Source: a virus. Taken from it: a DNA stretch of 31,202 nt. Where the stretch lies: positions 1-31,202 of IMG/VR virus record IMGVR_UViG_3300028045_000824; one strand, written 5' to 3'. This document shows positions 2,421 through 20,471 of this stretch, piece after piece. The position numbers and the translations under genes were made by a program. Every line of letters begins with the position of its first letter. Position 1 is the first letter of the stretch. The notes beneath the pieces were generated by a model, which ran no database searches, had not been told where the DNA came from, and was given only the letters and a program-made list of their open reading frames with translations.

Positions 2421-4754
2421 TTATGGAGTATCAGTCGAATCTATTTCATTATCATCAACTATCAATAAGTAATCTTCATCACTAATACTCTCTACTTCAA
2501 TGATTCCATCATCGCCAACTTTTGCTTTACCCTTTGATGTTACTGCAAAATTAATTTCGCTAGTATCTGGGTCAATAACACACATGACGTTTGCATCTTT
2601 GATTTTTTCAAACAAGATTTTCTTACTTAACGGAACTCTGATTAGTTCATCGATTTTTCTTGCTAATGGTCTTGCTCCTAATTTAGGATCATAACCTTTC
2701 TCTGCAAGGTATTCAATTGCTTCTTCAGTGAAGTTAAGAGTAATATTGTGTTTCTCCACAAGAGCAGTTTGAAGATCAGAAACAAATTTGATAACAATCT
2801 TTTTGATAGATAGTGTATCAAGTTTACCAAACTTACAAACCATATCAAGTCTATTTCTAAACTCTGGCTTAAAGAAGTTCTTCATTGCTTTATCATCTTC
2901 ACCTACTTTATCTTGGTCTCCAAAACCAATGTTGTTTCTGTCACCATCAGCACTACCTAAGTTAGATGTGAGAATGATTAAACAGTTCTTCATTGATACT
3001 TGCTTACCATTAGATCCAGTAACTGTACCTTCGTCTAACATCTGTAAGAAAATATTAAATATATCAGGGTGTGCTTTCTCAACTTCATCAAACAATAAGA
3101 TTGAATGAGGTTGTTTACTTAAGTCTGATATTAAACGTCCGCCTTGTACTTGTGAATCACTAAAGCCTACATAGCCAGGGGGTGGTCCTATCAAACTGCT
3201 TACACTGTGCTTCTCTGAATACTCGGACATATCGTATTTGAGCAGTGGCATATCTAAGTTACTAGACAGCAGTTTAGCCAATTCTGTTTTTCCCGTGCCT
3301 GTTGGGCCTAAAAATAAGAAACTTGCGATAGGTTTAGTTTCGTTGCCGATTCCTGCAAACGATACATAAACTCTTTCGATTACGTTATCAACTACATCAT
3401 CTTGACCATACAACTTACTTTTAACATTTACGTCTAAGTTCGTAATACGATCTACATTGTCCCCTTTGAGTTTATCAGCAGGAACGCCTGTGAACTTCTC
3501 TACTTGATCTAAGATTAAAGACTTGGTTATCTCTGCGCCTTTGTTCTCTGCTACACGTTGTTTTGCACATGCGGCATCAAGTAAATCAATTGACTTATCA
3601 GGATTCTTTCTGTCATGTATATATCGACCAGCCATTTCAACTGCGGCCTCGATAGCATCTTCTGTGATGTTAACATCATGGAAGTCATTTAATCTTTCTG
3701 ATAATCCACGTAGAATTCTTTGAGTTGTATCTGTGCTAGGCTCATCAATTGTTACACGATAGAATCTACGCATCAATGCTCGATCTTTCTCAAATGATTC
3801 GTAGTATTCTTCCCATGTAGTAGATGCAATGACTTTAAGTTTGCCTTTAGTGATTGCAGGCTTAATCATGTTTGCAAAGTCAACTGAGCCATTAGATGTT
3901 GATCCTGCGCCGCCCATAGTGTGTGCTTCGTCAATGAATAGAATAGCATTCTTTTTAACTTCTAATGCTTGTAGAACTTCTTTAACTTTTTCTTCAAACT
4001 CACCACGATACTTTGATCCAGCAAGTAGACTACCTATCTCTAATGAATAGACTTCATGTCCTTGTAAAAACTCTGGAACTTCTTCATTGACCACTGCTGA
4101 TGCAATGCCTTCTGCGATTGCAGTTTTACCTACACCTGGATCGCCTACCATGAGTACGTTTGCTTTGAAACGTTTTGCTAGAACATTGATAATATCATCA
4201 ATTTCTCTGACACGACCTATGACAGGCTCTAATGCATCGTCTCTAGCCATCTGTGTTAGATTAGTTGTGAATTCTTCCAAGACTTCATCTGCTTGTTCTG
4301 CTGAAATTACTGAGTAATCGTCACCTTTATAATGTCTCTGCCAAAAATCGATGAAGTTACCTTTAACTACACCATACTTTAATAGATAATAGTGAGCATT
4401 AGTATTTCCTTCTGTCGCAATACTTAAATATAAATCTAACGTAGTAACTGTTTTACGCCCTGTAAACAACACTTGTGTTACACCACGATTCATTACACGT
4501 TCTAAAGTGTTTGTCTTGCTTGGAACGCAATCTGGATCATTTGATTTGATTGCATGAAGTGCATTGAGATAACCTTCTACTTCATCAATCATCATGTCTA
4601 CTTCTACTCTAAATTGAGATAAGCATTTCTTAAATGGTTGATGTGTAATTAACGCATAAAGCAAATGTTCTATTGTCACATATTGGTGATTATAGGACTT
4701 AGCCTTCTCAATGGCTTTAGAGATAATGTTTTCGATTTCTGGCGATGTGTTCAA
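2421..4754 (-). CDS. clpA: ClpA-like AAA+ protein unfoldase
   Basis: A 777-residue protein collinear with bacterial ClpA (about 758 aa). It has an N-terminal Clp_N repeat domain (about 1-145), then AAA module 1 with Walker A GDPGVGKT (204-211), Walker B LFIDEAH (272-278) and pore loop KYRG (248-251). AAA module 2 has Walker A GPTGTGKT (483-490), pore loop GYVG (527-530) and Walker B LLFDE (553-557), followed by a GARP sensor-2 region. There is no ClpB/Hsp104 coiled-coil middle domain. IGF at 609-611 sits where ClpA has its IGL ClpP-docking loop, so it may thread substrates into a ClpP protease, presumably the host's. The start is a TTG with a GAGG Shine-Dalgarno sequence 9 nt upstream; the next Met (residue 54) would delete part of Clp_N. 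It directly follows dnaJ and has its own ATAAATA promoter. Confidence 0.95.
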   Translation of the reverse strand: MNTSPEIENIISKAIEKAKSYNHQYVTIEHLLYALITHQPFKKCLSQFRVEVDMMIDEVEGYLNALHAIKSNDPDCVPSKTNTLERVMNRGVTQVLFTGRKTVTTLDLYLSIATEGNTNAHYYLLKYGVVKGNFIDFWQRHYKGDDYSVISAEQADEVLEEFTTNLTQMARDDALEPVIGRVREIDDIINVLAKRFKANVLMVGDPGVGKTAIAEGIASAVVNEEVPEFLQGHEVYSLEIGSLLAGSKYRGEFEEKVKEVLQALEVKKNAILFIDEAHTMGGAGSTSNGSVDFANMIKPAITKGKLKVIASTTWEEYYESFEKDRALMRRFYRVTIDEPSTDTTQRILRGLSERLNDFHDVNITEDAIEAAVEMAGRYIHDRKNPDKSIDLLDAACAKQRVAENKGAEITKSLILDQVEKFTGVPADKLKGDNVDRITNLDVNVKSKLYGQDDVVDNVIERVYVSFAGIGNETKPIASFLFLGPTGTGKTELAKLLSSNLDMPLLKYDMSEYSEKHSVSSLIGPPPGYVGFSDSQVQGGRLISDLSKQPHSILLFDEVEKAHPDIFNIFLQMLDEGTVTGSNGKQVSMKNCLIILTSNLGSADGDRNNIGFGDQDKVGEDDKAMKNFFKPEFRNRLDMVCKFGKLDTLSIKKIVIKFVSDLQTALVEKHNITLNFTEEAIEYLAEKGYDPKLGARPLARKIDELIRVPLSKKILFEKIKDANVMCVIDPDTSEINFAVTSKGKAKVGDDGIIEVESISDEDYLLIVDDNEIDSTDTP

Positions 4755-4776: not shown

Positions 4777-5610
4777 TTAGTTGTTCTTTAGGTCTTGTAT
4801 ATCTTTATATTTGGTAATTGCATCTATGACACCTTTCTCTATATTAACAGGAATTATTCCTTTTAGCAAGATAATTTGATCGCCAAATTTCCCAGAATGT
4901 TGATTAGGCCCTCTTGGATCAGCAATAGGCATTCCTTGCCCTGTAAGTTTGATCTGTGTATTTGGTTGTGTACCTTCTCTTACCTTTACCTTCATTAATT
5001 TCCCAGATATTGTTGTAAATTTAATTTCTGTTCCTACAATCAAATCTAAGACAGAAATGTTATGTTCACTTATTAAATTATGTCCTTGACGTACAAAGAA
5101 TGAGTCTTCATGTACATGAAAATCAATGATTAAAGCAGTATTTGCATCGATAACATTAGGGTATTGAATTTGTTGCCCAGTTTGCACACCTTTTGGAATC
5201 GTAACATTAATTACGTTCTTGCCTTGATGTGTGTTTAGTTCTAATGTTTGTTGTCCGCCTGTATATGCTTGTCTCAATGATACTTGTAATGTTGTTCTAA
5301 ACATTGGCTGACGTTGTTGCTGTCTTCGTTGACCAAAGATATCACCAAAGGGTGAACCAGCACCAAAGATATCATTCATATCAAATGGTTGACTACCTTG
5401 TCTGAAACCACCACCGAATGGACTAGGGTTATCATACTCTGCACGTTTGTTTGGGTCACTTAAGGTTTCATATGCTTTCTGAACTTTCTTAAATTCTTCT
5501 TCACTGCCGCCTTTGTCTGGGTGATGTTTGCCCGCAAGTCTACGATATGCATTTTTAATTTCTTTAGCATCTGCTTGTTTTGAAACGCCCAGGGTTTGAT
5601 AGTGATCCAT
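4777..5610 (-). CDS. dnaJ: DnaJ/CbpA-like J-domain co-chaperone (no zinc finger)
   Basis: The N-terminal J domain begins MDHYQTLGVSK with the essential HPD motif at residues 30-32 (KHHPDKGG). A Gly/Phe-rich linker follows (about 65-100, with PFGGGF, DIFGAGSPFGDIF), then a DnaJ C-terminal substrate-binding region (about 105-270, TLQVSLRQAYTGG). The CxxCxGxG zinc-finger repeats of class A DnaJ are absent, so this is a class B/CbpA-like protein of 277 aa. J-domain proteins stimulate the DnaK ATPase and deliver substrates; no DnaK is in the window, so the host's is the likely partner. I chose the ATG at 5610 over an in-frame TTG at 5625 because the TTG lies upstream of the predicted transcription start. 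No Shine-Dalgarno sequence precedes the ATG. The clpA-like gene follows in the same direction. Confidence 0.92.
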   Translation of the reverse strand: MDHYQTLGVSKQADAKEIKNAYRRLAGKHHPDKGGSEEEFKKVQKAYETLSDPNKRAEYDNPSPFGGGFRQGSQPFDMNDIFGAGSPFGDIFGQRRQQQRQPMFRTTLQVSLRQAYTGGQQTLELNTHQGKNVINVTIPKGVQTGQQIQYPNVIDANTALIIDFHVHEDSFFVRQGHNLISEHNISVLDLIVGTEIKFTTISGKLMKVKVREGTQPNTQIKLTGQGMPIADPRGPNQHSGKFGDQIILLKGIIPVNIEKGVIDAITKYKDIQDLKNN

Positions 5611-5615
5611 GCTGT

Positions 5616-5644
5616 ATTGTATCAAGTGTTGACAAGAAAGTCAA
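5616..5644 (-). promoter_or_regulatory. Sigma-70-type promoter for dnaJ, with inverted repeat
   Basis: On the minus strand the -35 TTGACT (5639-5644), a 17-bp spacer and the -10 TACAAT (5616-5621) each match consensus at 5/6. The -10 ends 5 nt before the dnaJ ATG, so the predicted start site falls at or next to the start codon. TTGAC-N6-GTCAA, a perfect 5-bp dyad, overlaps the -35 and could be an operator half-site pair or chance. Confidence 0.65.
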
Positions 5645-8339: not shown

Positions 8340-9263
8340 TTAAGAAGTCAACTCAACTAAAGTTGCGGCGAGTGATATCTCAGGGATACCTACCATAGGC
8401 AAGTTTGCTAAGCCATTTCTGATTATAATAATGTTCGCATCACGTTTTTCATTAGATGCACCAAACAAGTCTAAGTTGTCATACATCCAACGATAAGTAT
8501 CTTCGATACGAGTCGGGTAGAGTGCAATATACTGCATTAACTGCTGTCTTGCTTCGATAATACTTCCAGACTTAAACAAGGTAGTTGCTTCGATTAGAAG
8601 TTCATTTTCGCTTTGGCCTTGCTTCTGAGGGGGTGTGAGAGCGCCAGAACCGCTGTTTACCTGCAATTGACTAAGACACTTACGTAAGTCAGGATATGTT
8701 GCACGAACATAAGTATCTAACACATCTAATTCAAAGTCAACTTCTTCCTTCATCAACACAGTTGCTGATCTCGCAGTGAACTCTGATAAATCAGGCTTTG
8801 CAATGTGAAATTCATGGCAACGAGATTTTAGTGCAGGAATGATCTTATGGGCATAATTACATGTGAGAATGTATCTTACAGTCTCATGGTATGCTTCCAT
8901 ATCATTTCGTAAAGCCGCCTGCGAGGGTTGAGTTAAATAATCAGCCTCGTCTAACAGCACAACTTTGAACTTGCCGAACGGCATAGTCTGCACAAAGCCA
9001 TTGATCTTTTCACGTAGCATGTCTATACCATTCTCACGTGATGCATTGATAGTCAGTACGTCATAGTCTTCTACGCCTAACTCATTGATTAACACTTTTG
9101 CAAGTGTTGTTTTACCTGTGCCCGGATCACCAGACATTAACAGATGCGGAAAACTACCATCTTTAATCCAACTTTCGACTCGACCTTTCTGTAGATCGTC
9201 TGTGAAGACATATCCATCTACTGTATCAGGACGATACTTTTCTACCCACAACTGATTCTTCAT
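8340..9263 (-). CDS. 44: Sliding-clamp loader ATPase subunit (T4 gp44-like)
   Basis: A 307-residue AAA+ protein close in size to T4 gp44 (319 aa). It has the opening VEKYRP block (residues 7-12), Walker A GDPGTGKT (45-52), Walker B LLDEAD (103-108) and the arginine-finger SRC motif (about 147-149). These are hallmarks of clamp-loader ATPases, which open the gp45 sliding clamp and load it onto primer-template DNA with gp62. A helical C-terminal collar domain follows. Neither gp45 nor a recognisable gp62 is in the window. The gene is preceded by a perfect sigma-70 consensus promoter and a TGAGG Shine-Dalgarno sequence, consistent with early expression by host RNA polymerase. Confidence 0.95.
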   Translation of the reverse strand: MKNQLWVEKYRPDTVDGYVFTDDLQKGRVESWIKDGSFPHLLMSGDPGTGKTTLAKVLINELGVEDYDVLTINASRENGIDMLREKINGFVQTMPFGKFKVVLLDEADYLTQPSQAALRNDMEAYHETVRYILTCNYAHKIIPALKSRCHEFHIAKPDLSEFTARSATVLMKEEVDFELDVLDTYVRATYPDLRKCLSQLQVNSGSGALTPPQKQGQSENELLIEATTLFKSGSIIEARQQLMQYIALYPTRIEDTYRWMYDNLDLFGASNEKRDANIIIIRNGLANLPMVGIPEISLAATLVELTS

Positions 9264-9295
9264 TAATACCTCATTGAGTTTGATTTAATACTAGC

Positions 9296-9324
9296 ATTAT
9301 ACAGGATTGATGCATAGATGTCAA
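9296..9324 (-). promoter_or_regulatory. Perfect-consensus sigma-70 promoter for gp44
   Basis: On the minus strand TTGACA (9319-9324), a 17-bp spacer and TATAAT (9296-9301) match the consensus exactly. The predicted start is near 9289, giving a leader of about 26 nt with TGAGG before the ATG at 9263. Strong early host-polymerase transcription is expected. Confidence 0.9.
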
Positions 9325-9337
9325 TCATTAATTAAGT

Positions 9338-9361
9338 AAAAAGGGCAACAATGTGCCCTTT
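9338..9361 (-). terminator. Intrinsic terminator after the secreted-protein gene
   Basis: AAAGGGCA-(6-nt loop)-TGCCCTTT is a perfect 8-bp stem starting 3 nt after the stop codon at 9365. On the minus strand the stem runs into TTTTT. It insulates the gp44 promoter from upstream read-through. Confidence 0.88.
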
Positions 9362-9364
9362 ATT

Positions 9365-9736
9365 TTAGTCTTCCCAGACAGTATCATTTTCGTCATAGAC
9401 TCCATCATTATTTGAATCACATACTTGTTGCCAACGAACCATTTCAAATGTATATCCTTCTGACCAAGGTGCATATGATAGACACCATTCATGGTCACTT
9501 TGTACTACACCTTCATTTGGGTCTGGTACATGATCTCTTTTGGGCCATGGTATTTGTTTACGAAAATACACATCACCTTTAGCATACAATTGACGTACCC
9601 AAAGATTGTCATCATAAGATACGAAAATACTTTCTCCATTTTTTAATGTGTATGACGAACCATCTTCATAGTTGATAACAGTTTGAGCAGTCGCACCGAA
9701 TGAAACTAGTGCTAGGGTAAAAATAAAAAATTTCAT
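9365..9736 (-). CDS. Secreted/periplasmic protein with signal peptide and EF-hand-like loop
   Basis: The N-terminus MKFFIFTLALVSFGATAQ is a textbook Sec signal peptide (basic n-region, hydrophobic core, cleavage likely after ATA, residue 17). The mature protein, about 106 aa, is acidic and Trp/Tyr-rich with only two Cys (85 and 106), which could form one disulfide in the periplasm. Near the C-terminus DSNNDGVYDEND (107-118) has acidic or Asn residues at EF-hand loop positions 1, 3, 5, 9 and 12 with Gly at 6, as in calcium-binding dockerin/EF-hand loops. A strong AAAGGAG Shine-Dalgarno sequence precedes the ATG. I do not recognise the family. A role at the host envelope (for example superinfection exclusion or lysis control) would be speculation. 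Confidence 0.75.
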   Translation of the reverse strand: MKFFIFTLALVSFGATAQTVINYEDGSSYTLKNGESIFVSYDDNLWVRQLYAKGDVYFRKQIPWPKRDHVPDPNEGVVQSDHEWCLSYAPWSEGYTFEMVRWQQVCDSNNDGVYDENDTVWED

Positions 9737-9761
9737 ATATAGTCTCCTTTGAATTTTTCAA

Positions 9762-9785
9762 TTGTGCATTCACCTGAACACACAA
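9762..9785. repeat. 24-bp imperfect dyad upstream of the secreted-protein gene
   Basis: TTGTG-ca-TTCA-cc-TGAA-ca-CACAA is symmetric at 18 of 24 positions. As minus-strand RNA the two interruptions become G-U pairs, giving a hairpin of about 10 bp with a 4-nt loop. It lies between the methyltransferase stop and the next Shine-Dalgarno sequence, without a T-run. It could be an operator, an RNA-processing hairpin or a weak terminator. Confidence 0.45.
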
Positions 9786-9801
9786 CTAAATAACCCGAAA
9801 A

Positions 9802-10605
9802 CTATGCTACTTCATTCCTCTCAAAAACTATTCTAATATCTCCGTCTAGTTGACTAGTAAAATCTGACCCATGACTATAATCAACATCAAATACTATTAT
9901 AGTACAATCTAAATCAAAAAGCAACTCCCTAGTTACCCTTTCTACTGCTTCTTTGGTTCTATCAGGACGTACATCACTTTGCATTGTTTTAAAATAATGA
10001 TTAATTTTTTCAGTACTTGCTGTAGGATCAGCGAGCCAGATTTCATGCTTATCTATATTATTCAGTATATGTCCTACATTAAGAGAGATATATCCTCTTC
10101 CTCCGGGCTTAACCATCGAAATAAAATCATTTACTATTTTTTTCATATCTATATTAGGATAGAAATGTAAAGCGGTTATTGAAAAAACAGACTCAAAATA
10201 GTTTTGGTGAGAATCGATAAACGATTGATCTATTGTATCAACTATATCAACATATGGAATCCCGGCTCTATTTTCTAATGAATTATCAGGGTCAATTCCT
10301 ATAATATTAGGAATATATTTTTTAAATGAATTATCACCGCAACCTAAATCGTAGATAGTAGTTGGGTTTTTTTCTAATAGAAAATTTAAATAATAAAACG
10401 GAGTAAGACTGTATTCATTTGGCCAACGTTTTCTATGTTTGCTTTTTGTTGCTAAGTGGAAAGCATTTGGTTGCATTGGATCAAAGAATTTTTCCCAATG
10501 CAAATATTGGTAATTTTTAGCAATTGCTTTATATAAGTCAGTTTTTATAAAAGAGGACTTAAACGCATCAACGTCATATGCATTGACATTTTCTTGTATG
10601 GACAT
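9802..10605 (-). CDS. Class I SAM-dependent methyltransferase-like protein
   Basis: A 267-residue protein with a Rossmann methyltransferase core. Motif I is IYDLGCGDNSF (about 84-94), the acidic residue ending strand 2 is in IIGIDPD (about D105), and the post-motif region is SVFSITALHFYPN followed by MVKPGGRGYISLNVG, the usual late-core strand. No DNA-methylase (D/N/S)PPY motif is visible, so a small-molecule, protein or RNA substrate is more likely than DNA base methylation. The N-terminal 75 residues are helical and may recognise the substrate. It is more AT-rich than its neighbours and I do not recognise it as a core T4-like gene, which fits an acquired accessory gene. Its ATG overlaps the co-chaperonin stop as TAATG. 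Confidence 0.8.
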   Translation of the reverse strand: MSIQENVNAYDVDAFKSSFIKTDLYKAIAKNYQYLHWEKFFDPMQPNAFHLATKSKHRKRWPNEYSLTPFYYLNFLLEKNPTTIYDLGCGDNSFKKYIPNIIGIDPDNSLENRAGIPYVDIVDTIDQSFIDSHQNYFESVFSITALHFYPNIDMKKIVNDFISMVKPGGRGYISLNVGHILNNIDKHEIWLADPTASTEKINHYFKTMQSDVRPDRTKEAVERVTRELLFDLDCTIIVFDVDYSHGSDFTSQLDGDIRIVFERNEVA

Positions 10606-10982
10606 TAAGCGCCTTCTTTGTCACCATAAGCCATATTTCTTTGAGGTTCATCACTTACTAACATGCAGTCTTTAGGGTCAACACATCGAATTGTTTTATC
10701 GCCTTCTGCATCAGTAATGTTAACACCACGTGTCCATCTGCCATGACCAACGAGAACCCATTGACCTACTTCAAGTCCACTGTTATGATCTGGTCCTAAT
10801 GAATATACTTGTGCCCAACGAGGTTTGATCCCTGAAGATTTCTTATCATCGTCCATTAAAATGATACCAGAATCTAATGTTTGTCCACCAAAATCCATAT
10901 TGTGTACAATGATTTTATCAGAAATTGCTCTCAATGACTTGCATTGAATACGATTGATATTTGATTTAAGTCCTATTGCCAT
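10605..10982 (-). CDS. GroES/gp31-like co-chaperonin
   Basis: A 125-residue protein with the GroES beta-barrel layout. SLRAISDKIIVHNMD corresponds to the opening strand (PLHDRVIV in GroES). A mobile-loop-like segment GGQTLDSGIILMDDDKK follows, with IIL where GroES has the IVL tripeptide that docks on GroEL. Then comes WAQVYSLGP (GEVLAVGNG in GroES) and GQWVLVGHGRWTRG. T4 encodes gp31 to replace GroES so that GroEL can fold the major capsid protein; the same role is likely here with host GroEL. The TAA of the upstream gene directly abuts this ATG, and its own stop overlaps the methyltransferase ATG (TAATG). The family assignment rests on motif order because identity to GroES is low. Confidence 0.78.
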   Translation of the reverse strand: MAIGLKSNINRIQCKSLRAISDKIIVHNMDFGGQTLDSGIILMDDDKKSSGIKPRWAQVYSLGPDHNSGLEVGQWVLVGHGRWTRGVNITDAEGDKTIRCVDPKDCMLVSDEPQRNMAYGDKEGA

Positions 10983-11642: not shown

Positions 11643-12158
11643 CTATTTTAAAAATTCTTCGATGTTTAAATCGTAGTGTAAACTATTTATTCTGTGAATA
11701 CCTATCAAAAACAAAACAAAACTAGATACACTCGATCCTCTCCCAACTCCCCATACTATATTGTTCTTTCGCATTAAGTCTACAAGATACTTCATATATT
11801 GTAACAAAGTAAAGAGTCCTCTCTTTTCATACATCAACAACTCTTTACCTGCTCGTTGTAGTTCTTCTTCATGTGTACACTGATCTAATACGAACTTTGC
11901 AATGTCAAACGTTTTATACTCATCGGGCATAAACCATTGACTCCTAAGAATTTGATCAAAGTCTTCTACTGACATGTTAATGTTTTCTGTTAACTCCTTG
12001 ACTAAATTAGGTACATTCTCTAATTCTAATGCTGGGTCAAAAGGCACAACTTCATCTACTATAACAGCATGTTTTAACTTAACAGTGGGATTAGTCATAT
12101 ACAAATCAAACAAGTCTTGCTCGTTGTATATAGGTTGTCCATAGTTGTTCTTAATCAT
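11643..12158 (-). CDS. Short DnaE (Pol III alpha)-like protein lacking the catalytic aspartates
   Basis: A 171-residue protein. Its C-terminal part (about 128-171) contains NNIVWGVGRGSSVSSFVLF and then HYDLNIEEFLK. It aligns by eye with the bacterial DnaE palm segment GPGRGSGAGSLVAY...FERFL that precedes the catalytic PDFDVDF. The reading frame stops where DnaE would continue to those aspartates, and the next gene starts 10 nt on in ordinary fashion, so it is a complete short gene rather than a broken polymerase. Without the aspartates it should not polymerise; a nucleotide-sensing or replisome-binding role is possible. Similar short DnaE-like proteins occur in marine T4-like phages. A sigma-70-type promoter ends 6 nt before the ATG and there is no Shine-Dalgarno sequence. 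Confidence 0.85.
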   Translation of the reverse strand: MIKNNYGQPIYNEQDLFDLYMTNPTVKLKHAVIVDEVVPFDPALELENVPNLVKELTENINMSVEDFDQILRSQWFMPDEYKTFDIAKFVLDQCTHEEELQRAGKELLMYEKRGLFTLLQYMKYLVDLMRKNNIVWGVGRGSSVSSFVLFLIGIHRINSLHYDLNIEEFLK

Positions 12159-14389: not shown

Positions 14390-16927
14390 TTAGCCGGATA
14401 CATTTCCTTTATCAGGTAATATTGTTTTTCTAGGGAATAACACATGAAAATTATCTCTCTCAACTGGATCAAGCGGTGGAGACGCACTAGGTAGTCCTGT
14501 CCATGCAGGAGGAGTAGTGTTATTATCATAGTCAAATGTAATAGATTTATCGACTGTTATTCTATCTAACTCAAAGTTAATTTGATTTAATGTATAAGGT
14601 TTCCCTAGCGGATCTAACCATAATGTTTCGATATTGTTTTTAATTGTATCAGCAGTTCCTGGCTTGCAATATGCAAGAACCCAAGCAGGAGTATATCCTA
14701 ACGTTGAACCGTTTGCTTGTTGACTAGTCATCCATTCAGGAAGTAATCTAAAGTCGAATTCTTGTCCTAAATTTTGACCAACCCTTGATCTCATATTTGG
14801 TAAACTGTTTGGATATAATGCTTGAGCAAATCCTGGAGTTAAGGCTGTATAATATTGTGGATTACCGTCAGCATCGTTATCTATGTAACTTGTGTATATA
14901 TCCATCTCACTTGTATACCATGGGCCTTTGTTTAATGGAATATCTCTTGGCCATAAAATGCCTTCACTAACACTTTTGCCTTTAGGATTAACTAAGTTGT
15001 CTTGTACTTCTGAATATACAACTTCATATACTACTGTGCCTGCCGCATTTTTTGCAACTGCTGTTTTTAATTCTCCTAAAGTAATATATCTCCAATAATG
15101 ATTTTTAGTAATAGCCGCAACATATTCATCAAAGTCACTTGCATAAATTCCATATGCATGTTCATATACTATACTAGATGCTTTACCAAAATTAGAATCT
15201 TCTACTCTATACAAGTCTGCTGTAGGGAAAATTGTAGTGCTAGTTAATAACTGCTTAATGATTGCTCTATCTTCAAGTGAAGGAGCACACTTAATGTACA
15301 ACGTGTCTGTTGGTTGATCGAATTCCTGATCAATTACTAATGTAAATTCTCTTTGAGAAAATACAACAGGATATAACGGAGAGTATGCTTCTATAGTAAA
15401 AGTGAATGTAGTTTGATCATCTAATTCTAATAATTCATCTGTAGGTTGATATGCAACTATGCCTGAAATTCCGCCATCTGCGAGTACTGTTAAGTTTGGA
15501 GGTAGTTTTCCACTAGTTACTCTATAAGATAATGCTACGTCAGATGTTGCTTCAACTGCTAAGATTGATGTTTCACTATTATTCATTTTACCAAGATCAC
15601 TAGGCGTAATCCAAGTAATAATACCATTGATGTCATTAGCAATAGTCATTTGGAAATTAAAGACAGCACTAGAAACATTAGTAAAGTTTGTCTTTCTAAC
15701 ACTCACAGAAAAACTATAATTATTAATACTGTTTTCTGCAATGACTGGAGTTCCTGTTATCCAACCAGTTGTAGCATCACCGACTAAACCTAAAGGCAAG
15801 TTTGCGAATTGATATGTTAATGCATCGCCATCGAAGTCATGTCCTAACATTTTCCATGAAAAGTATTCTCCACTTTGAAACTGTCCCATGAGAGCAGATT
15901 CGCTTGGTGAATAAGTGAGATTTAGATCGTTGTTAGGGAATACATAGTATCCATAATTAGTAGGATCATTGACACCTACATTAAATGTTGATGGTCTTGT
16001 ATTGTAGATTGTGGGAACTCTTGTGTTAGCAGGAAATCCAGGACCTCCTACACTTGTTGGTGCATTTTGATTTGCTACAATAATTAAATATGATTGTAAG
16101 TTGTTTCCTAAAGCAGATAATAGTTCTAGTGTGAAACTAAATGTTTGTACAGTTGGCTCACCTATTTGAATTTGTGGCAAGGTAGTTGTCATAATACCAG
16201 TGCCATCAGTCAGACTAAGAATTGTTCCGCCACGTGTCAAAGAAATAGTAAACGTTGTTGAATTTATTATTGAATGTACAAAGTAAGTAGTATTAGATAT
16301 TAATCCACCAAATAACGATCCTGAAAACACAACAGGTCTATCTATAACGAATTCATCAGTACTTAGTACTTCTATCACATTAGATGACACAGATACCGCA
16401 GTTGTAGATACAGCAGAGTAATTAATATTAATGATAGGAGCTTCTGGATATCCTCTGATTAAACCTTTTTCATTTATTTCTAAGCCAGGAGGAAGTTTGC
16501 CTTGTGCTAATCTAATTGTTATTTCGTTAGTAGGGATCGGATTGTTATATTCTACTTGCAGTTCTCGCCAAATACTGTCATTAGTATTAAGTATTGTTCC
16601 TGTAGGAGTAGTAAATGTAGGAGTAGCAACGCCACTAATCTCTATGCTAAATGCTCTGTCTGCTATTTCAGTAGCATTACTTGCTTCTGATGCTCTTACA
16701 GCAAAGTTATATACAGTATCGACACCAACGCTTCCTGGTGTGCCTGATAAGATACCAGTAGTACTGTTTAGTGTCAATCCTGCAGGCAACGAGCCACTTA
16801 ATACTGCATAAGATAATGTATCTGACACATCATCAGGAGTTGCTGAGAATGTGAAAGATAAAGGAATCAATGAGGGATATGCACCTATTGATCCTTTGGG
16901 AGTTACCCAAGTTGGATGATGACTCAT
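14390..16927 (-). CDS. Large structural protein with Ig-like (He_PIG-type) repeats, 845 aa
   Basis: At least four units carry the putative-Ig signature (S/K)LPxGLxx...GxIxGxP: SGSLPAGLTLNSTTGILSGT (about 44-63), KLPPGLEINEKGLIRGYP (about 145), NLPLGLVGDATTGWITGTP (about 377) and KLPPNLTVLADGGISG (about 470). Between units 2 and 3 lies a module (about 185-245) also present twice in the 438-aa protein. The C-terminal 250 residues (TLYIKCAPSLEDRAIIKQLL onward) are different, mixed alpha/beta, and may be an attachment domain. Ig-like repeats on phage virions are generally thought to bind cell surfaces weakly. The gene overlaps the lysin stop by ATGA and is followed by a separate late promoter. 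Virion location is inference from composition and neighbours. Confidence 0.85.
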   Translation of the reverse strand: MSHHPTWVTPKGSIGAYPSLIPLSFTFSATPDDVSDTLSYAVLSGSLPAGLTLNSTTGILSGTPGSVGVDTVYNFAVRASEASNATEIADRAFSIEISGVATPTFTTPTGTILNTNDSIWRELQVEYNNPIPTNEITIRLAQGKLPPGLEINEKGLIRGYPEAPIININYSAVSTTAVSVSSNVIEVLSTDEFVIDRPVVFSGSLFGGLISNTTYFVHSIINSTTFTISLTRGGTILSLTDGTGIMTTTLPQIQIGEPTVQTFSFTLELLSALGNNLQSYLIIVANQNAPTSVGGPGFPANTRVPTIYNTRPSTFNVGVNDPTNYGYYVFPNNDLNLTYSPSESALMGQFQSGEYFSWKMLGHDFDGDALTYQFANLPLGLVGDATTGWITGTPVIAENSINNYSFSVSVRKTNFTNVSSAVFNFQMTIANDINGIITWITPSDLGKMNNSETSILAVEATSDVALSYRVTSGKLPPNLTVLADGGISGIVAYQPTDELLELDDQTTFTFTIEAYSPLYPVVFSQREFTLVIDQEFDQPTDTLYIKCAPSLEDRAIIKQLLTSTTIFPTADLYRVEDSNFGKASSIVYEHAYGIYASDFDEYVAAITKNHYWRYITLGELKTAVAKNAAGTVVYEVVYSEVQDNLVNPKGKSVSEGILWPRDIPLNKGPWYTSEMDIYTSYIDNDADGNPQYYTALTPGFAQALYPNSLPNMRSRVGQNLGQEFDFRLLPEWMTSQQANGSTLGYTPAWVLAYCKPGTADTIKNNIETLWLDPLGKPYTLNQINFELDRITVDKSITFDYDNNTTPPAWTGLPSASPPLDPVERDNFHVLFPRKTILPDKGNVSG

Positions 16928-17418
16928 TTGTTAAGACCTAAAGAGTAATGCGTTCTACCATCAACTTTACTTGCTGTTAATGTTTTGCCTCTATTACCTT
17001 CTATATTATAAGTTACATGTACCCAGCCAGAGTCTGGTATTCCAGGAGTATAAAATTCTAAAATTACTTGATCAAAGTCTGTGTTCTTTTCAATCCATTT
17101 AGCAAGATCATAATTAGATACACTATGTATTTCTATGTCTGCCGCTTGACCTTTACAATGCTGTGACTTAGAACTTCCGCCAACTGCTTTATTAAGTGCT
17201 TCCCCACGATATCCACTATTAATAATGACAGGTCCAAAATGATCTCTGACTTTTTGTAATACGTTTTCACACAATGCTTTTGCATTTTCTAAATGCTCTT
17301 CAGGCATAGAGTTGTCTAAGCCTTGACGTATAGCAGTTTGACTTTTTTCAAACTCTGTTAGTGTAAAATTCTTTGATAATCTCATTTGTTTCTTACCCTT
17401 CTTAAAGATGCAAAACAT
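16924..17418 (-). CDS. M15-family peptidase (endolysin-like, peptidoglycan-cleaving)
   Basis: This is the Peptidase_M15_3 type. SGYRG at about residues 68-72 is followed by SKSQHCKGQAADIE, giving the zinc ligands His87 and Asp94, and GWVHV supplies the third ligand, His134. Such enzymes cut D-Ala-containing cross-links in peptidoglycan and act as phage endolysins or virion-bound wall hydrolases. I give the ATG at 17418 (164 aa) because it overlaps the fiber stop as TAATG, the same coupling seen elsewhere here. The ATG at 17385 (MRLSKNFTLTEF, 153 aa) is where relatives usually begin and is a real alternative. There is no signal peptide. It sits between two tail-associated genes, so a tail-associated wall-cleaving role is possible; no holin is adjacent. 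Confidence 0.88.
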   Translation of the reverse strand: MFCIFKKGKKQMRLSKNFTLTEFEKSQTAIRQGLDNSMPEEHLENAKALCENVLQKVRDHFGPVIINSGYRGEALNKAVGGSSKSQHCKGQAADIEIHSVSNYDLAKWIEKNTDFDQVILEFYTPGIPDSGWVHVTYNIEGNRGKTLTASKVDGRTHYSLGLNK

Positions 17419-20400
17419 TATGCATATGTTGCGCCAACAGTATACCAATTTGTAGAGTTTGTACAAATATATTGTAATGTTGCACCCTCTGGATGCGTGA
17501 ATGCATTGTTAGTACCTAATGAATTTATTTCATCACTAGTGTTCGGATATACTTTGAATGAGTTAGATACAGTATTGATTATGAATACTACTAATCCACC
17601 TTGAGCAACTGGTAATTTAATACCATTAGATGCTGATGCTGACGTTACTCTGTTAATTTCAGTTGTTAATGTAAACGCATCGCCCTGTGAACTACCTGAA
17701 GCACTTACAGAGTCACTAGATGAATGGAATAGAAACGAACTGACTGATGTTATATTTGGTTGTGCGGCAGTTGTTACCGTGCCTGCTAGTGGAGCACTAC
17801 CTGCTGATGCGGCATATGTTGAGTTTGCTACTACGCCAGTAACATTACCACCTGCTACATTGTTTGCTATTGCCGCAAATCCTACTTGCCCACCTACATT
17901 TGAACCAGTTATATTAGTTAAGTTGGCACCATCGCCTGACACAGATGTAAATGTACCACGTGTAGCAGAGATATTACCTACAGAAACGTTACCAGTTACT
18001 GTCAGTGAAGTTAAAGATCCTACTGAAGTAATATTAGGTTGTGCGGCTGTTGTTACTGTACCAGCAGTCGTTGCACTAGTTGCAACTGTCGCACTTGATA
18101 CAGCACCAGAAACATTAGATCCTACTATATTAGATAAACCACCACCATCACCAGATATTAAACCAGTGTTTGCTGTGATGTTAACTGCTGTAATTAATCC
18201 ATTAACATCTAACCCAGTTAAAGTACCAACTGACGTGATGTTTGGTTGAGCGGCTGTTGTTACAGTCTGTGCTGTTGTTGCTGTTGTTGCAGACGATACT
18301 GCACCAACTACGTTGCTTCCAGATACGCTATTTGCAACTGACGCAAATCCAACTTCGCCAGATACATTACCACCTGTTACAGCATTTGCTGTTGCCGCGA
18401 ATGATACTTGACCTGCGACATTTGCTCCTGCTACTGCGTTTGCTGTTACTGCTGTTGTTGCTGTTGTTGCTAAAGGAACTTCACTTACATTTGCTCCAGT
18501 AATATTTGTTAATCCTGCGCCATTACCTTTAAACGATCCTGTTCCTGCTGATATTTCGATATTACCTGCGTTAGTAATAACGTCAGAGTTTGTGTTGAAA
18601 CTTCCACCTAAGATTAATGAAGTTAAAGTACCAACACTTGTAATGTTTGGTTGTGCCGCAGTTGATAATGGTCCACTTATAACTGGTGCACTAAAAGTAC
18701 CTGTTGTTTTGTTGAATGTAAATCCTGTATTACCAGCATACAAGCCTGAACCGTCATTGAATATGACCTGAGTATTTGCACCAGGCGCCGCAGTTACTGC
18801 TGTTGACCATGTTAAACCACCTGCGCCATCTGTTCTTAAGAATGAGTCTGCTACTCCACCTGTAATTGTTACATTACTTTCTGGTCCTAAGTTAGCAGTA
18901 CTATTGAAATTTATGTTGTTATCGAATCCACCTGATACAGACATTGAGCCTGCAACTTCCATGTTTGTTCCTGAATCTTTAACTTGTACTACGTTTGCTG
19001 AACCATTGATTGAAACTCTGAATGGTCCGTTAGTATCCACTATTGCATTACTTGTGCCGTTTGTAATAGCGGCACCTGCTGATACAGATATGTTAGATAG
19101 ACCACCACCATCACCAGTAATAAGACCAGTTGTAGTTAAATTTCCAGCATCGATATTTCCTGTAACATTCAATGATGTTAGAGTACCTGTACTTGTTATG
19201 TTTGGTTGTGCGCCAGTTTCTACTGTTCCTGCTGATACTGCATATGTTGCATTTGCTACAGTACCTGATACATTAGCACCAGCAACTGAATTTGCTACTA
19301 CTGAGAATCCAACTTCGCCAGATACGTTTGCACCAGCGACTGAGTTTGCTATAGCGGCATTCGTAACTTCACCTGAGACATTTGCTCCCGCTACTGAATT
19401 AGCAGTTATAGCAAAGTTTACTTGTCCAGTTACATTAGAACCAGCAACTGCGTTAGCACTATCTGATGATACTGCATGTGTAGCATTGGCTACTGCACCT
19501 GAGACATTTGCTCCTGCAATTGCGGCCAGGTTAGCACCGTCACCTGAAACATATGTGAATACACCACCTGTGCCAGACACATTGCCTGCAGACACATTAC
19601 CTGTTACAGATAATGCTGATAATGTGCCGACACTTGTGATATTTGGCTGTGCCGCTGTAGTAACTGTTCCTGCTAATGGCGAACTGCCTGCTGATACTGC
19701 ATATGTTGCATTCGCTACTAAGCCTACATTACCACCTGCAATATTTGATAAGCCACCACCGTCACCTGTAAATAATCCTGTATTTGCTGTAAATGATTGT
19801 GCTGTGACAATTCCATTAACACCTAATGCTGATAACGTTCCTACTGATGTGATGTTTGGTTGAGCGGCTGTTGTTACTGTGCCTGCTGTTGCGGCTGAAC
19901 CAGTTACACTACCAGTGATTGGTGCAGTTACAGTAAGTCCAGATAGAGTTCCTACTGATGTAATATTTGTTTGGGCGGCTGTACTTAAAGTACCTGTTAA
20001 TGTAGTGGCACCGATAATGCCTGTGTTAGCATAGACATTTCCTGCTACTACATTATTAGTTAATGTTATGTTATTGCCATCTATGTTGCCATTACCTGAT
20101 GATGTGTTTGCTAAGATATAACCGAAGTCGCCTGCCGCATAAACCGCAGTAGGAGGCAGATCAATGTAAAGAGATTGACTTGTGTTTTCTATTTTTGCAA
20201 CTGATAGTGTTCCTGGATTGCTTATCCCTAAATCTAATGTAGATGATCTAACAGTCCAGTTGGCAATGTTCGCAGAAATAACTACGTTGCCTGTAGGTTG
20301 ATTTACTTGAATTCCAGACCCTGCAGTTTTGTTAACAGATATAACGGCTTGATCACCGAGACCAGCAAATACTTCTGTAAAATTTAACTGAACTTTCTCA

Positions 20401-20471
20401 AATGCCGAGCGGATAGCATCTGCATTGGGATCGTCTGGGAATGCTCCGAAATCTATATTTCTTTGTGACAT
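17418..20471 (-). CDS. Giant repetitive tail fiber-like protein, 1017 aa
   Basis: The N-terminus RNIDFGAFPDDPNADAIRSA then FEKVQLNFTEVF is a fiber attachment module seen in marine T4-like phages. The body is built of repeats: eight copies of a block like TAAQPNITSVGTLTSL, six like GDGGGLSNI, and more than ten like AGANVSGEV or ATANAVAG. This Gly/Ala/Thr/Val/Asn pattern fits an extended beta-solenoid or trimeric fiber shaft. The last ~100 residues (from FLFHSSSDSVSASG) leave the repeats and end with a compact beta tip (LQYICTNSTNWYTVGATYA), the likely receptor-facing or knob end. The ATG follows TTAGGAAAG and an ATAAATA promoter. The stop overlaps the lysin ATG. It probably recognises the host surface. 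Confidence 0.9.
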   Translation of the reverse strand: MSQRNIDFGAFPDDPNADAIRSAFEKVQLNFTEVFAGLGDQAVISVNKTAGSGIQVNQPTGNVVISANIANWTVRSSTLDLGISNPGTLSVAKIENTSQSLYIDLPPTAVYAAGDFGYILANTSSGNGNIDGNNITLTNNVVAGNVYANTGIIGATTLTGTLSTAAQTNITSVGTLSGLTVTAPITGSVTGSAATAGTVTTAAQPNITSVGTLSALGVNGIVTAQSFTANTGLFTGDGGGLSNIAGGNVGLVANATYAVSAGSSPLAGTVTTAAQPNITSVGTLSALSVTGNVSAGNVSGTGGVFTYVSGDGANLAAIAGANVSGAVANATHAVSSDSANAVAGSNVTGQVNFAITANSVAGANVSGEVTNAAIANSVAGANVSGEVGFSVVANSVAGANVSGTVANATYAVSAGTVETGAQPNITSTGTLTSLNVTGNIDAGNLTTTGLITGDGGGLSNISVSAGAAITNGTSNAIVDTNGPFRVSINGSANVVQVKDSGTNMEVAGSMSVSGGFDNNINFNSTANLGPESNVTITGGVADSFLRTDGAGGLTWSTAVTAAPGANTQVIFNDGSGLYAGNTGFTFNKTTGTFSAPVISGPLSTAAQPNITSVGTLTSLILGGSFNTNSDVITNAGNIEISAGTGSFKGNGAGLTNITGANVSEVPLATTATTAVTANAVAGANVAGQVSFAATANAVTGGNVSGEVGFASVANSVSGSNVVGAVSSATTATTAQTVTTAAQPNITSVGTLTGLDVNGLITAVNITANTGLISGDGGGLSNIVGSNVSGAVSSATVATSATTAGTVTTAAQPNITSVGSLTSLTVTGNVSVGNISATRGTFTSVSGDGANLTNITGSNVGGQVGFAAIANNVAGGNVTGVVANSTYAASAGSAPLAGTVTTAAQPNITSVSSFLFHSSSDSVSASGSSQGDAFTLTTEINRVTSASASNGIKLPVAQGGLVVFIINTVSNSFKVYPNTSDEINSLGTNNAFTHPEGATLQYICTNSTNWYTVGATYA
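17735..19990 (-). repeat. Degenerate coding repeats of the fiber shaft
   Basis: Within the 1017-aa fiber gene, near-identical DNA phrases recur (plus-strand examples: gatgtgatgtttggttg, gcggctgttgttactgt, ttacctgctgatactgcat-like). They track the AAQPNITSVG, GDGGGLSNI and NVSGxV protein repeats. They are long enough to recombine and change shaft length. Confidence 0.8.

Follow-up and report, generated by a model that had tools for sequence, protein, structure and literature searches.

A common phage gene family predicted to encode exported calcium-loop proteins, with a leader predicted to sequester the Shine-Dalgarno in some lineages

We describe a family of small genes that is common among the phages of IMG/VR and whose products carry what appear, from sequence, to be two family traits, a signal peptide and a calcium-type loop of the Dx[DN]xDG kind. 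The member of chief concern lies on the minus strand of the window, by which we mean the whole stretch of DNA analyzed (31,202 bases, a virus record in IMG/VR). Its open reading frame encodes 123 aa and runs from an ATG at 9736 to a stop ending at 9365 (9365..9736), where the sequence-only reading had placed it without naming a strand. The computations establish the family itself, its signal-peptide pattern, the conservation of the loop, the even number of cysteines, the structure of the leader RNA, the terminator, the optional insertion of the gene and, for some phage groups, a statistical nearness to lysis genes that is not an immediate one. We tentatively propose, with a probability of roughly one in three, that the product is an accessory protein which acts late and on the envelope, and that it probably has to do with lysis. 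The novelty lies in a family that is absent from the libraries searched, a leader without a match in Rfam, and a known loop chemistry in a new context. Of the sequence-only reading, the export signal, the calcium-type loop and the unrecognised family are retained here, whereas the assignment of the loop to the EF-hands is not.

Distribution and export signature of the family

A single-sequence scan of IMG/VR recovered 8 relatives of the window gene, and successive alignment scans yielded 182, 309 and 345 confirmed stretches. The loci considered below are the best 80 per scan, amounting to 221 loci at 141 distinct places (window included) of the 345 stretches, and an HMM search found one family ORF in each of the 221, again counting the window. 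Two pattern-based scans of 84,980 prokaryote species genomes gave no confirmed relative; 12 and 53 stretches fitted a pattern and 0 were confirmed. Tblastn searches of 50,697 annotated phage records with P0001, L063, L009, L104 and L088 as queries gave no accepted match, a 32-residue match in Stenotrophomonas phage BUCTxx99 (E 0.1) having been dropped as antisense to annotated genes. Nothing was accepted for the family members scanned against Pfam, PHROGs, NCBIfam or PDB sequences, and the weak rows from the first three (E 0.008 to 0.5) were ignored, as they lay below the cut-offs where these exist and were inconsistent between members. The family had gone unrecognised when judged from the letters, and the same holds for all of these collections. 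One BFVD entry, A0A516LJC9, matches in predicted fold at E 8.8e-8, with 39% identity across 92 columns, and looks like a family member, the sole one seen in a public protein set; the tables consulted give it neither name nor function, and no paper on the family was among the literature matches listed. As had been supposed, the window is phage DNA, an IMG/VR virus contig with clamp-loader and PhoH genes. Its lineage has no close isolate in the phage collection, because all 2566 matches to the clamp loader fall below 60% identity, the best among the matches listed being 51%.

The family is under purifying selection, as judged by a low median pairwise dN/dS (0.134) over 285 pairs that are non-independent and none of which includes the window. 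The window and its nearest relative, L002, are 8 bases and 6 residues apart (dN 0.021, dS 0.027), which is too little divergence to show such selection for this pair.

The proposal that the protein bears a Sec signal peptide is borne out by the pattern of its relatives as well as by its own sequence. The protein is laid out as MKFFIFTLALVSFGATA, a cleavage point, and QTVINYEDGSSYTL...HEWC...WQQVCDSNNDGVYDENDTVWED, and the predicted Sec-type signal peptide occupies residues 1-17 (9686..9736, minus strand), with A-T-A ahead of Q-T-V. Among 130 distinct ORF proteins of the family, the hydrophobic stretch ahead of a conserved [EQD]T is strong in 122 and weaker in 2, and 6 escaped the N-terminal anchor pattern; of the 124 anchored proteins, 121 have small residues at both -3 and -1. 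The mature window protein has 106 aa and agrees with the earlier description of an acidic, Trp-rich domain with two cysteines (pI 4.27, 6 Trp, 20 acidic vs 8 basic residues, Cys85 and Cys106). Its highest 19-residue Kyte-Doolittle hydropathy is -0.13 and the family maximum is 0.61, and by this measure the mature family proteins contain no membrane-spanning stretch. The window protein has no lipobox, as the residue at +1 is not a Cys, and a spanin or holin identity was rejected for want of either a lipobox or a transmembrane segment in the mature protein.

The cysteines are in keeping with an exported product. Their number is even in all 121 distinct mature proteins (2 in 41, 4 in 78, 8 in 2), a set outside of which stand L206, L212, L217 and L089 (N-termini off the anchor pattern) as well as the window. 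The window protein has two, at residues 85 (9482..9484, minus strand) and 106 (9419..9421, minus strand), the latter immediately N-terminal of the loop and both of them invariant in the alignments. A loop Cys is joined by a tail Cys in 80 of 80 proteins, and neither occurs in the remaining 41. Disulfide pairing in an oxidising compartment would be expected to give just such an even count and co-occurrence. In L088 (5968-6648) and L114 (5968-6621), the Cys-plus-loop module is present as a tandem duplicate, with 8 Cys, and the partial ORF of L089 likewise contains it twice.

The calcium-type loop

In the window protein the loop, DSNNDGVYDEND, spans residues 107-118 (9383..9418, minus strand), of which residues 107-112 satisfy the Dx[DN]xDG motif. 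Across 56 distinct proteins, loop residues D1, D5, Y8 and D12 are invariant, as are C85 and C106, and position 3 is N in 44 and D in 12. Most of these 56 proteins were gathered without the loop as bait, and the single-sequence scan and the later scans used loop residues; for loci from the loop-free search, the invariance of D1, N/D3, D5 and D12 is not a bait effect, because the patterns omitted the loop. In the wider set of 130 distinct ORF proteins, D1 is found in every one, D12 in 128 and Y8 in 129, with position 3 occupied by N (97), D (20) or T (13), position 5 by D (120) or N (10), and position 9 by D (63), G (44), N (16) or others (7). The strict Dx[DN]xDG motif occurs in 92 of 121 mature proteins, compared with 35 of the 1648 ORFs of 80 aa or longer in the neighbourhood, which is more than chance would provide, and a relaxed form, CDx[DNST]x[DN], occurs in 121 of 121. 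The sequence-only reading had staked itself on homologs that conserve the loop, and such homologs exist; a calcium-type loop is predicted both in the window protein and in the relatives examined.

Loops of this type are known from elsewhere. According to Rigden et al. (PMC3123361), at least 12 families bind Ca2+ through Dx[DN]xDG loops, mostly in extracellular settings, and the structure search described there required Asp at the first motif position while admitting D, N, S or T at the second and D or N at the third. By its sequence, the family loop fits this broader, non-EF-hand class, that of Rigden and Galperin, in a new context. It resembles the known loops in its spacing, its predicted extracytoplasmic place and the residues at ligand positions, and it shares with them a single loop in a non-EF-hand setting, a helix followed by the loop. 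Unlike the known Dx[DN]xDG proteins, the family has no PDB sequence or fold relative among our results, carries a Cys directly before the loop and a Tyr at position 8, and has a calcium site that is putative. The further acidic residue downstream of the motif, Asp12, would presumably also serve as a ligand.

The loop had previously been read as an EF-hand, and positions 1, 3, 5, 6, 9 and 12 of that pattern do fit the window protein; its spacing, like that of EF-hand (PF00036/PF13202) and dockerin loops, covers 12 residues and places Asp at 1, 5 and 12. However, position 9 is not conserved in the family, Tyr rather than Ile, Leu or Val stands at position 8 (129 of 130), and neither the window sequence nor any of the 121 mature sequences matches the PROSITE EF-hand loop pattern PS00018. 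Pfam returned no EF-hand match for P0001, 9 members of alignment A1, L104 or L088. A structure model (pLDDT 80.8, pTM 0.41) places a helix right before the loop and none after it, which departs from helix-loop-helix, the model being of moderate confidence and useful only as a guide. A canonical EF-hand protein is therefore extremely unlikely. Dockerins comprise two loop-helix repeats, and a dockerin was rejected on the grounds of a single, unpaired C-terminal loop, the missing helix in the model and the lack of a Pfam match. Searches with the predicted structures gave 296 Foldseek rows for a first model (pTM 0.37), none at E<=0.001; for a second model, VIA-align was run against 293 chains, of which none reached Z>=2. 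A different reading takes the loop to be a structural relic that has lost calcium binding, the conserved unit being a disulfide-bonded turn. The variability of position 9, the Asn at position 5 in 10 of 130 proteins, the Thr at position 3 in 13 of 130 and the Cys contained in 80 of 121 loops would all suit a relic, whereas the retention of D1 (130/130) and D12 (128/130) would not, and the replacements at 3 and 5 are among those admitted in the structure search (PMC3123361); we consider this reading quite improbable.

Leader RNA, terminator and gene order

The dyad noticed upstream of the gene is real and larger than was described. Positions 9737-9800 fold at -19.2 kcal/mol (z -5.0), and folding, pairing and a covariance model delimit a leader RNA (9736..9806, minus strand) whose long hairpin is predicted to sequester the Shine-Dalgarno. 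In the window, the 3' arm GGAGACTAT (9739..9747, minus strand), which contains the Shine-Dalgarno, pairs with the 5' arm ATAGTTTTC (9797..9805, minus strand), 49 bases apart. When this pairing was tested in 11 loci from two lineages, window included, 8 or 9 of the 9 arm pairs formed with the best 5' arm in all 11, with a G-C to A-U switch between the lineages, and all eleven loci fold independently into the same general shape. For the 8 sequences (7 distinct) of the window lineage, 93.5% of cells pair, against 29-57% in slid controls, and the covariation score is 0.138 against 0.100 in shuffles, only 1 of 500 being as high. Double-change pairs were matched by 69 of 500 shuffles and further pair types by 419 of 500, which is no excess, and two of five covariation measures did not rise above the shuffles. 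Once the second lineage is added, compensatory change is seen in 4 of 9 inner-helix pairs.

Covariance model R1, built on the 8 window-lineage sequences (window included), matches the window at 95.7 bits and finds the held-out L003, L010, L012 and L013 at the exact leader position (E 2.7e-4 to 9.6e-3); elsewhere in the window it returns only the antisense of the leader itself and weak rows. It weakly matches L222, L207, L208 and L044 (E 0.07-0.63). The leaders of L222, L207, L147 and L044 have z values of -4.8 to -7.6 and each contain a CANGTG element; the first three adopt a similar fold with the Shine-Dalgarno paired, and in L044 it is partly paired. A leader at z<=-4.5 stands before 15 of 137 family genes, which come from seven gene-content groups and include 5 of the 8 window-lineage loci. 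Among 1373 control genes there are 9 such cases, and several of these resemble terminators. A simple count of Shine-Dalgarno pairing is mildly raised (50/137 family vs 337/1331 control genes), and there is no clear family-wide shift in Shine-Dalgarno accessibility (median 0.45 vs 0.49). Most operonic groups are without the leader, and it is not a family-wide feature. Taken as a prediction, the leader sequesters the Shine-Dalgarno, is conserved with compensatory changes and recurs in several other phage groups.

A parallel exists in phage T4, whose lysozyme gene, e, is among those with such a leader. Translation of e, soc, 49 and I-TevI is reported to be blocked by leaders that sequester the Shine-Dalgarno, the leader of gene e keeping early read-through mRNA untranslated (PMC3014915). 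The family leader is predicted to share the e-type trait of a Shine-Dalgarno paired with a conserved upstream arm, and likely early/late control would be common to both. It differs from the T4 leaders in the gene attached and in having no Rfam match at gathering thresholds. In e-type leaders a late promoter between the arms frees the site; a search for a T4-type late promoter inside the family leader found none, the sequence TATAAATA occurring once in the window, elsewhere. A leader of this type suggests that translation is delayed.

The terminator proposed after the gene is likewise real. An intrinsic-terminator-like hairpin (9340..9361, recorded without a strand) directly follows the stop. 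Transcription of the minus strand gives it a U-run; the terminator scan itself listed only the plus-strand orientation. The same element is present in L002, L005, L006, L008, L032 and L043. Terminator-like hairpins occur within 65 bases downstream of 25 of 138 family genes and of 55 of 1363 controls. They are found in 8 of 8 loci of the window group, in 10 of 10 and 4 of 8 of two others and in three single loci, and in none of the rest; outside these groups, the family gene sits in operon-like gene runs.

The window lineage carries the gene as optional cargo, inserted where two core genes meet. In the window it is flanked by the clamp loader (8340-9263; phrog_168, E 6.5e-72) and, on the other side, by a methyltransferase-like gene with weak matches (9802-10605) and a GroES-like/head-morphogenesis gene (10605-10982; phrog_931 and phrog_3188, no Pfam match). 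Of 80 contigs whose clamp loader is related, 9 have the family gene in the slot that separates the clamp loader from the GroES-like gene; in others these two are adjacent (e.g. L229, L232, L233, L234 and L257) or the slot is otherwise filled. Across the slot at 9263-10605 and its counterparts in L225-L304, the contents vary from none to the family gene, a methyltransferase-like gene, ORFs of ~100 aa, or a ~229-aa membrane protein (by eye).

Several other features of the window were observed in passing. Past the family-gene terminator, at 9296-9324 (minus strand), a promoter with 12 of 12 sigma-70 consensus bases (TTGACA, 17 bases, TATAAT) faces the clamp loader. Three host-type chaperone genes are present on the minus strand, namely the GroES-like gene, a Clp ATPase (2421-4754; PF07724, PF02861) and DnaJ (4777-5625; PF00226, PF01556). 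A separate 171-aa ORF at 11643-12158 (minus strand) matches DNA polymerase (phrog_11127, E 3.5e-38); many of the 80 contigs with a related clamp loader have relatives of it at the same place, a pattern suggestive of a split polymerase gene. A 1017-aa repetitive protein (17418-20471, minus strand), with many TAAQPNITSVGTL-type repeats, looks tail-fibre-like by eye.

Possible roles at the cell envelope

The connection with lysis derives from gene neighbourhoods, in which M15 and GH24 endolysins, a 3TM holin and Rz- and Rz1-like spanins were counted as recognised lysis genes, their clusters having been named from one representative each. A lysis gene lies within four genes of the family gene at 73 of 141 places, where 39.9 would be expected. 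Counted by gene-content group, the figure is 8 of 20 against 3.2 expected (P about 0.001), another strict grouping giving 11 of 26 against 4.6. At shorter range, the counts over the 141 places are not significant (14 vs 12.6 expected within one gene, 27 vs 23.3 within two), and within two genes the groups show no clear excess (3/20 vs 1.7 and 4/26 vs 2.7 expected). Under a coarse grouping, in which 116 of the 141 places fall into one group, the result is 1 of 10 against 0.44 expected (P 0.44). A 'broad' lysis set, with 49 of 141 against 17.9 within one gene, was left unused as circular, its holin-like neighbours having been chosen for their adjacency. In the group of the window and in 11 others, no recognised lysis gene lies within four genes, and the M15 endolysin of the window (16924-17466) is 7 kb from the family gene. 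Proximity to lysis genes is therefore statistical rather than immediate, holds in some phage groups, and makes for a weak link.

The commonest immediate neighbour, preceding the family gene at 38 of 141 places, is a protein of 156-158 aa with a hydrophobic C-terminus (by eye), from a family of 156-160 aa; examples at L162:3051-3518 and L224:3998-4480 weakly match phrog_32327. In Limnohabitans phage DC31, a homologue of this neighbour is followed by an EF-hand-like/transmembrane protein and an Rz-like protein (both by eye), and the same stretch continues with an annotated L-alanyl-D-glutamate peptidase; beside the homologue in Roseobacter phage CRP-4 there is no annotated lysis gene. Near spanin genes, L026:8412-8744 and L224:4482-4820 encode small phage proteins, membrane-bound by eye, that bear an EF-hand-like DINGDG loop in the N-terminal part, the protein of L026 giving a Pfam EF-hand row below its cut-off (E 4e-4).

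In the lysis-connected reading that we prefer, the family gene would be an accessory ('moron'-type) phage gene whose small, soluble product is exported via the host Sec pathway. Removal of the signal peptide would leave ~106 residues to fold with a Cys85-Cys106 disulfide, accompanied in longer variants by a second, and the C-terminal Dx[DN]xDG loop after Cys106 may bind one Ca2+, by which the C-terminal module would be rigidified or switched. In the window lineage, the leader would hide the Shine-Dalgarno, such that read-through mRNA of the upstream GroES-like and methyltransferase genes is poorly translated. The site could be freed on a shorter transcript or by some factor able to open the hairpin, and only then would the protein be made, probably late. 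Its place of action would be the periplasm or the cell surface, and its most likely part that of an accessory to lysis or of a factor in its timing. That the protein is indeed exported, forms disulfides, binds Ca2+, appears late and takes part in lysis is what we infer.

Close competitors of the lysis-connected reading are superinfection exclusion and other roles at the envelope. The family product could be a superinfection-exclusion factor that blocks the injection machinery of incoming phages in the manner of T4 Spackle (gp61.3), with which it would share the format of a small phage protein with a signal peptide, a disulfide and a presumed periplasmic location (mature length 75 aa vs 106 aa here; PMC7677548), and a gene that is optional cargo in many phage groups would suit such a purpose. 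Spackle, however, is described as an early, alpha-helical lysozyme inhibitor (PMC7677548), whereas the leader points to translation being delayed. At the limits used, the PDB gave no match in sequence or fold, Spackle included, and no positive evidence for exclusion emerged, such that we regard this role as possible though doubtful. The protein could equally modify the host envelope or surface apart from both lysis and exclusion, for instance as a ligand-binding or inhibitor protein. The great diversity of its gene neighbours (20 gene-content groups) and the duplication of the C-terminal Cys-plus-loop module in L088 and L114 would accord with this, while no enzyme-like family match was found, and here, too, we would speak of a possibility that is tentative at best. 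In some groups the gene adjoins a terminase-like gene or lies near tail-like genes, as might be expected if its product joined the virion, either in the periplasm or on particles already released. In tailed phages virion assembly is cytoplasmic, and this together with a cleaved Sec signal makes a virion protein very unlikely.

A bolder reading, which we consider improbable, would have the gene and its leader form a mobile cassette of uncultivated phages. A self-blocking leader of ~70 nt, with an apical CANGUG and a sequestered Shine-Dalgarno, would be coupled to a secreted, disulfide-stapled calcium-loop protein that regulates the envelope in dependence on extracellular calcium, lysis timing being one example of a target. 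If this were true, phages would possess a family of calcium-switched periplasmic effectors with an RNA control element of their own. Whichever role proves correct, a common phage family has been missed by the annotated-phage and family-library searches made here, and it comes with three handles, namely an export signal, a calcium-type loop and a Shine-Dalgarno-sequestering leader that recurs with the gene and could serve as a reporter of the time of its translation. Should the protein indeed act on the envelope, the family would offer a route to asking how phages make use of extracellular calcium or time their exit.
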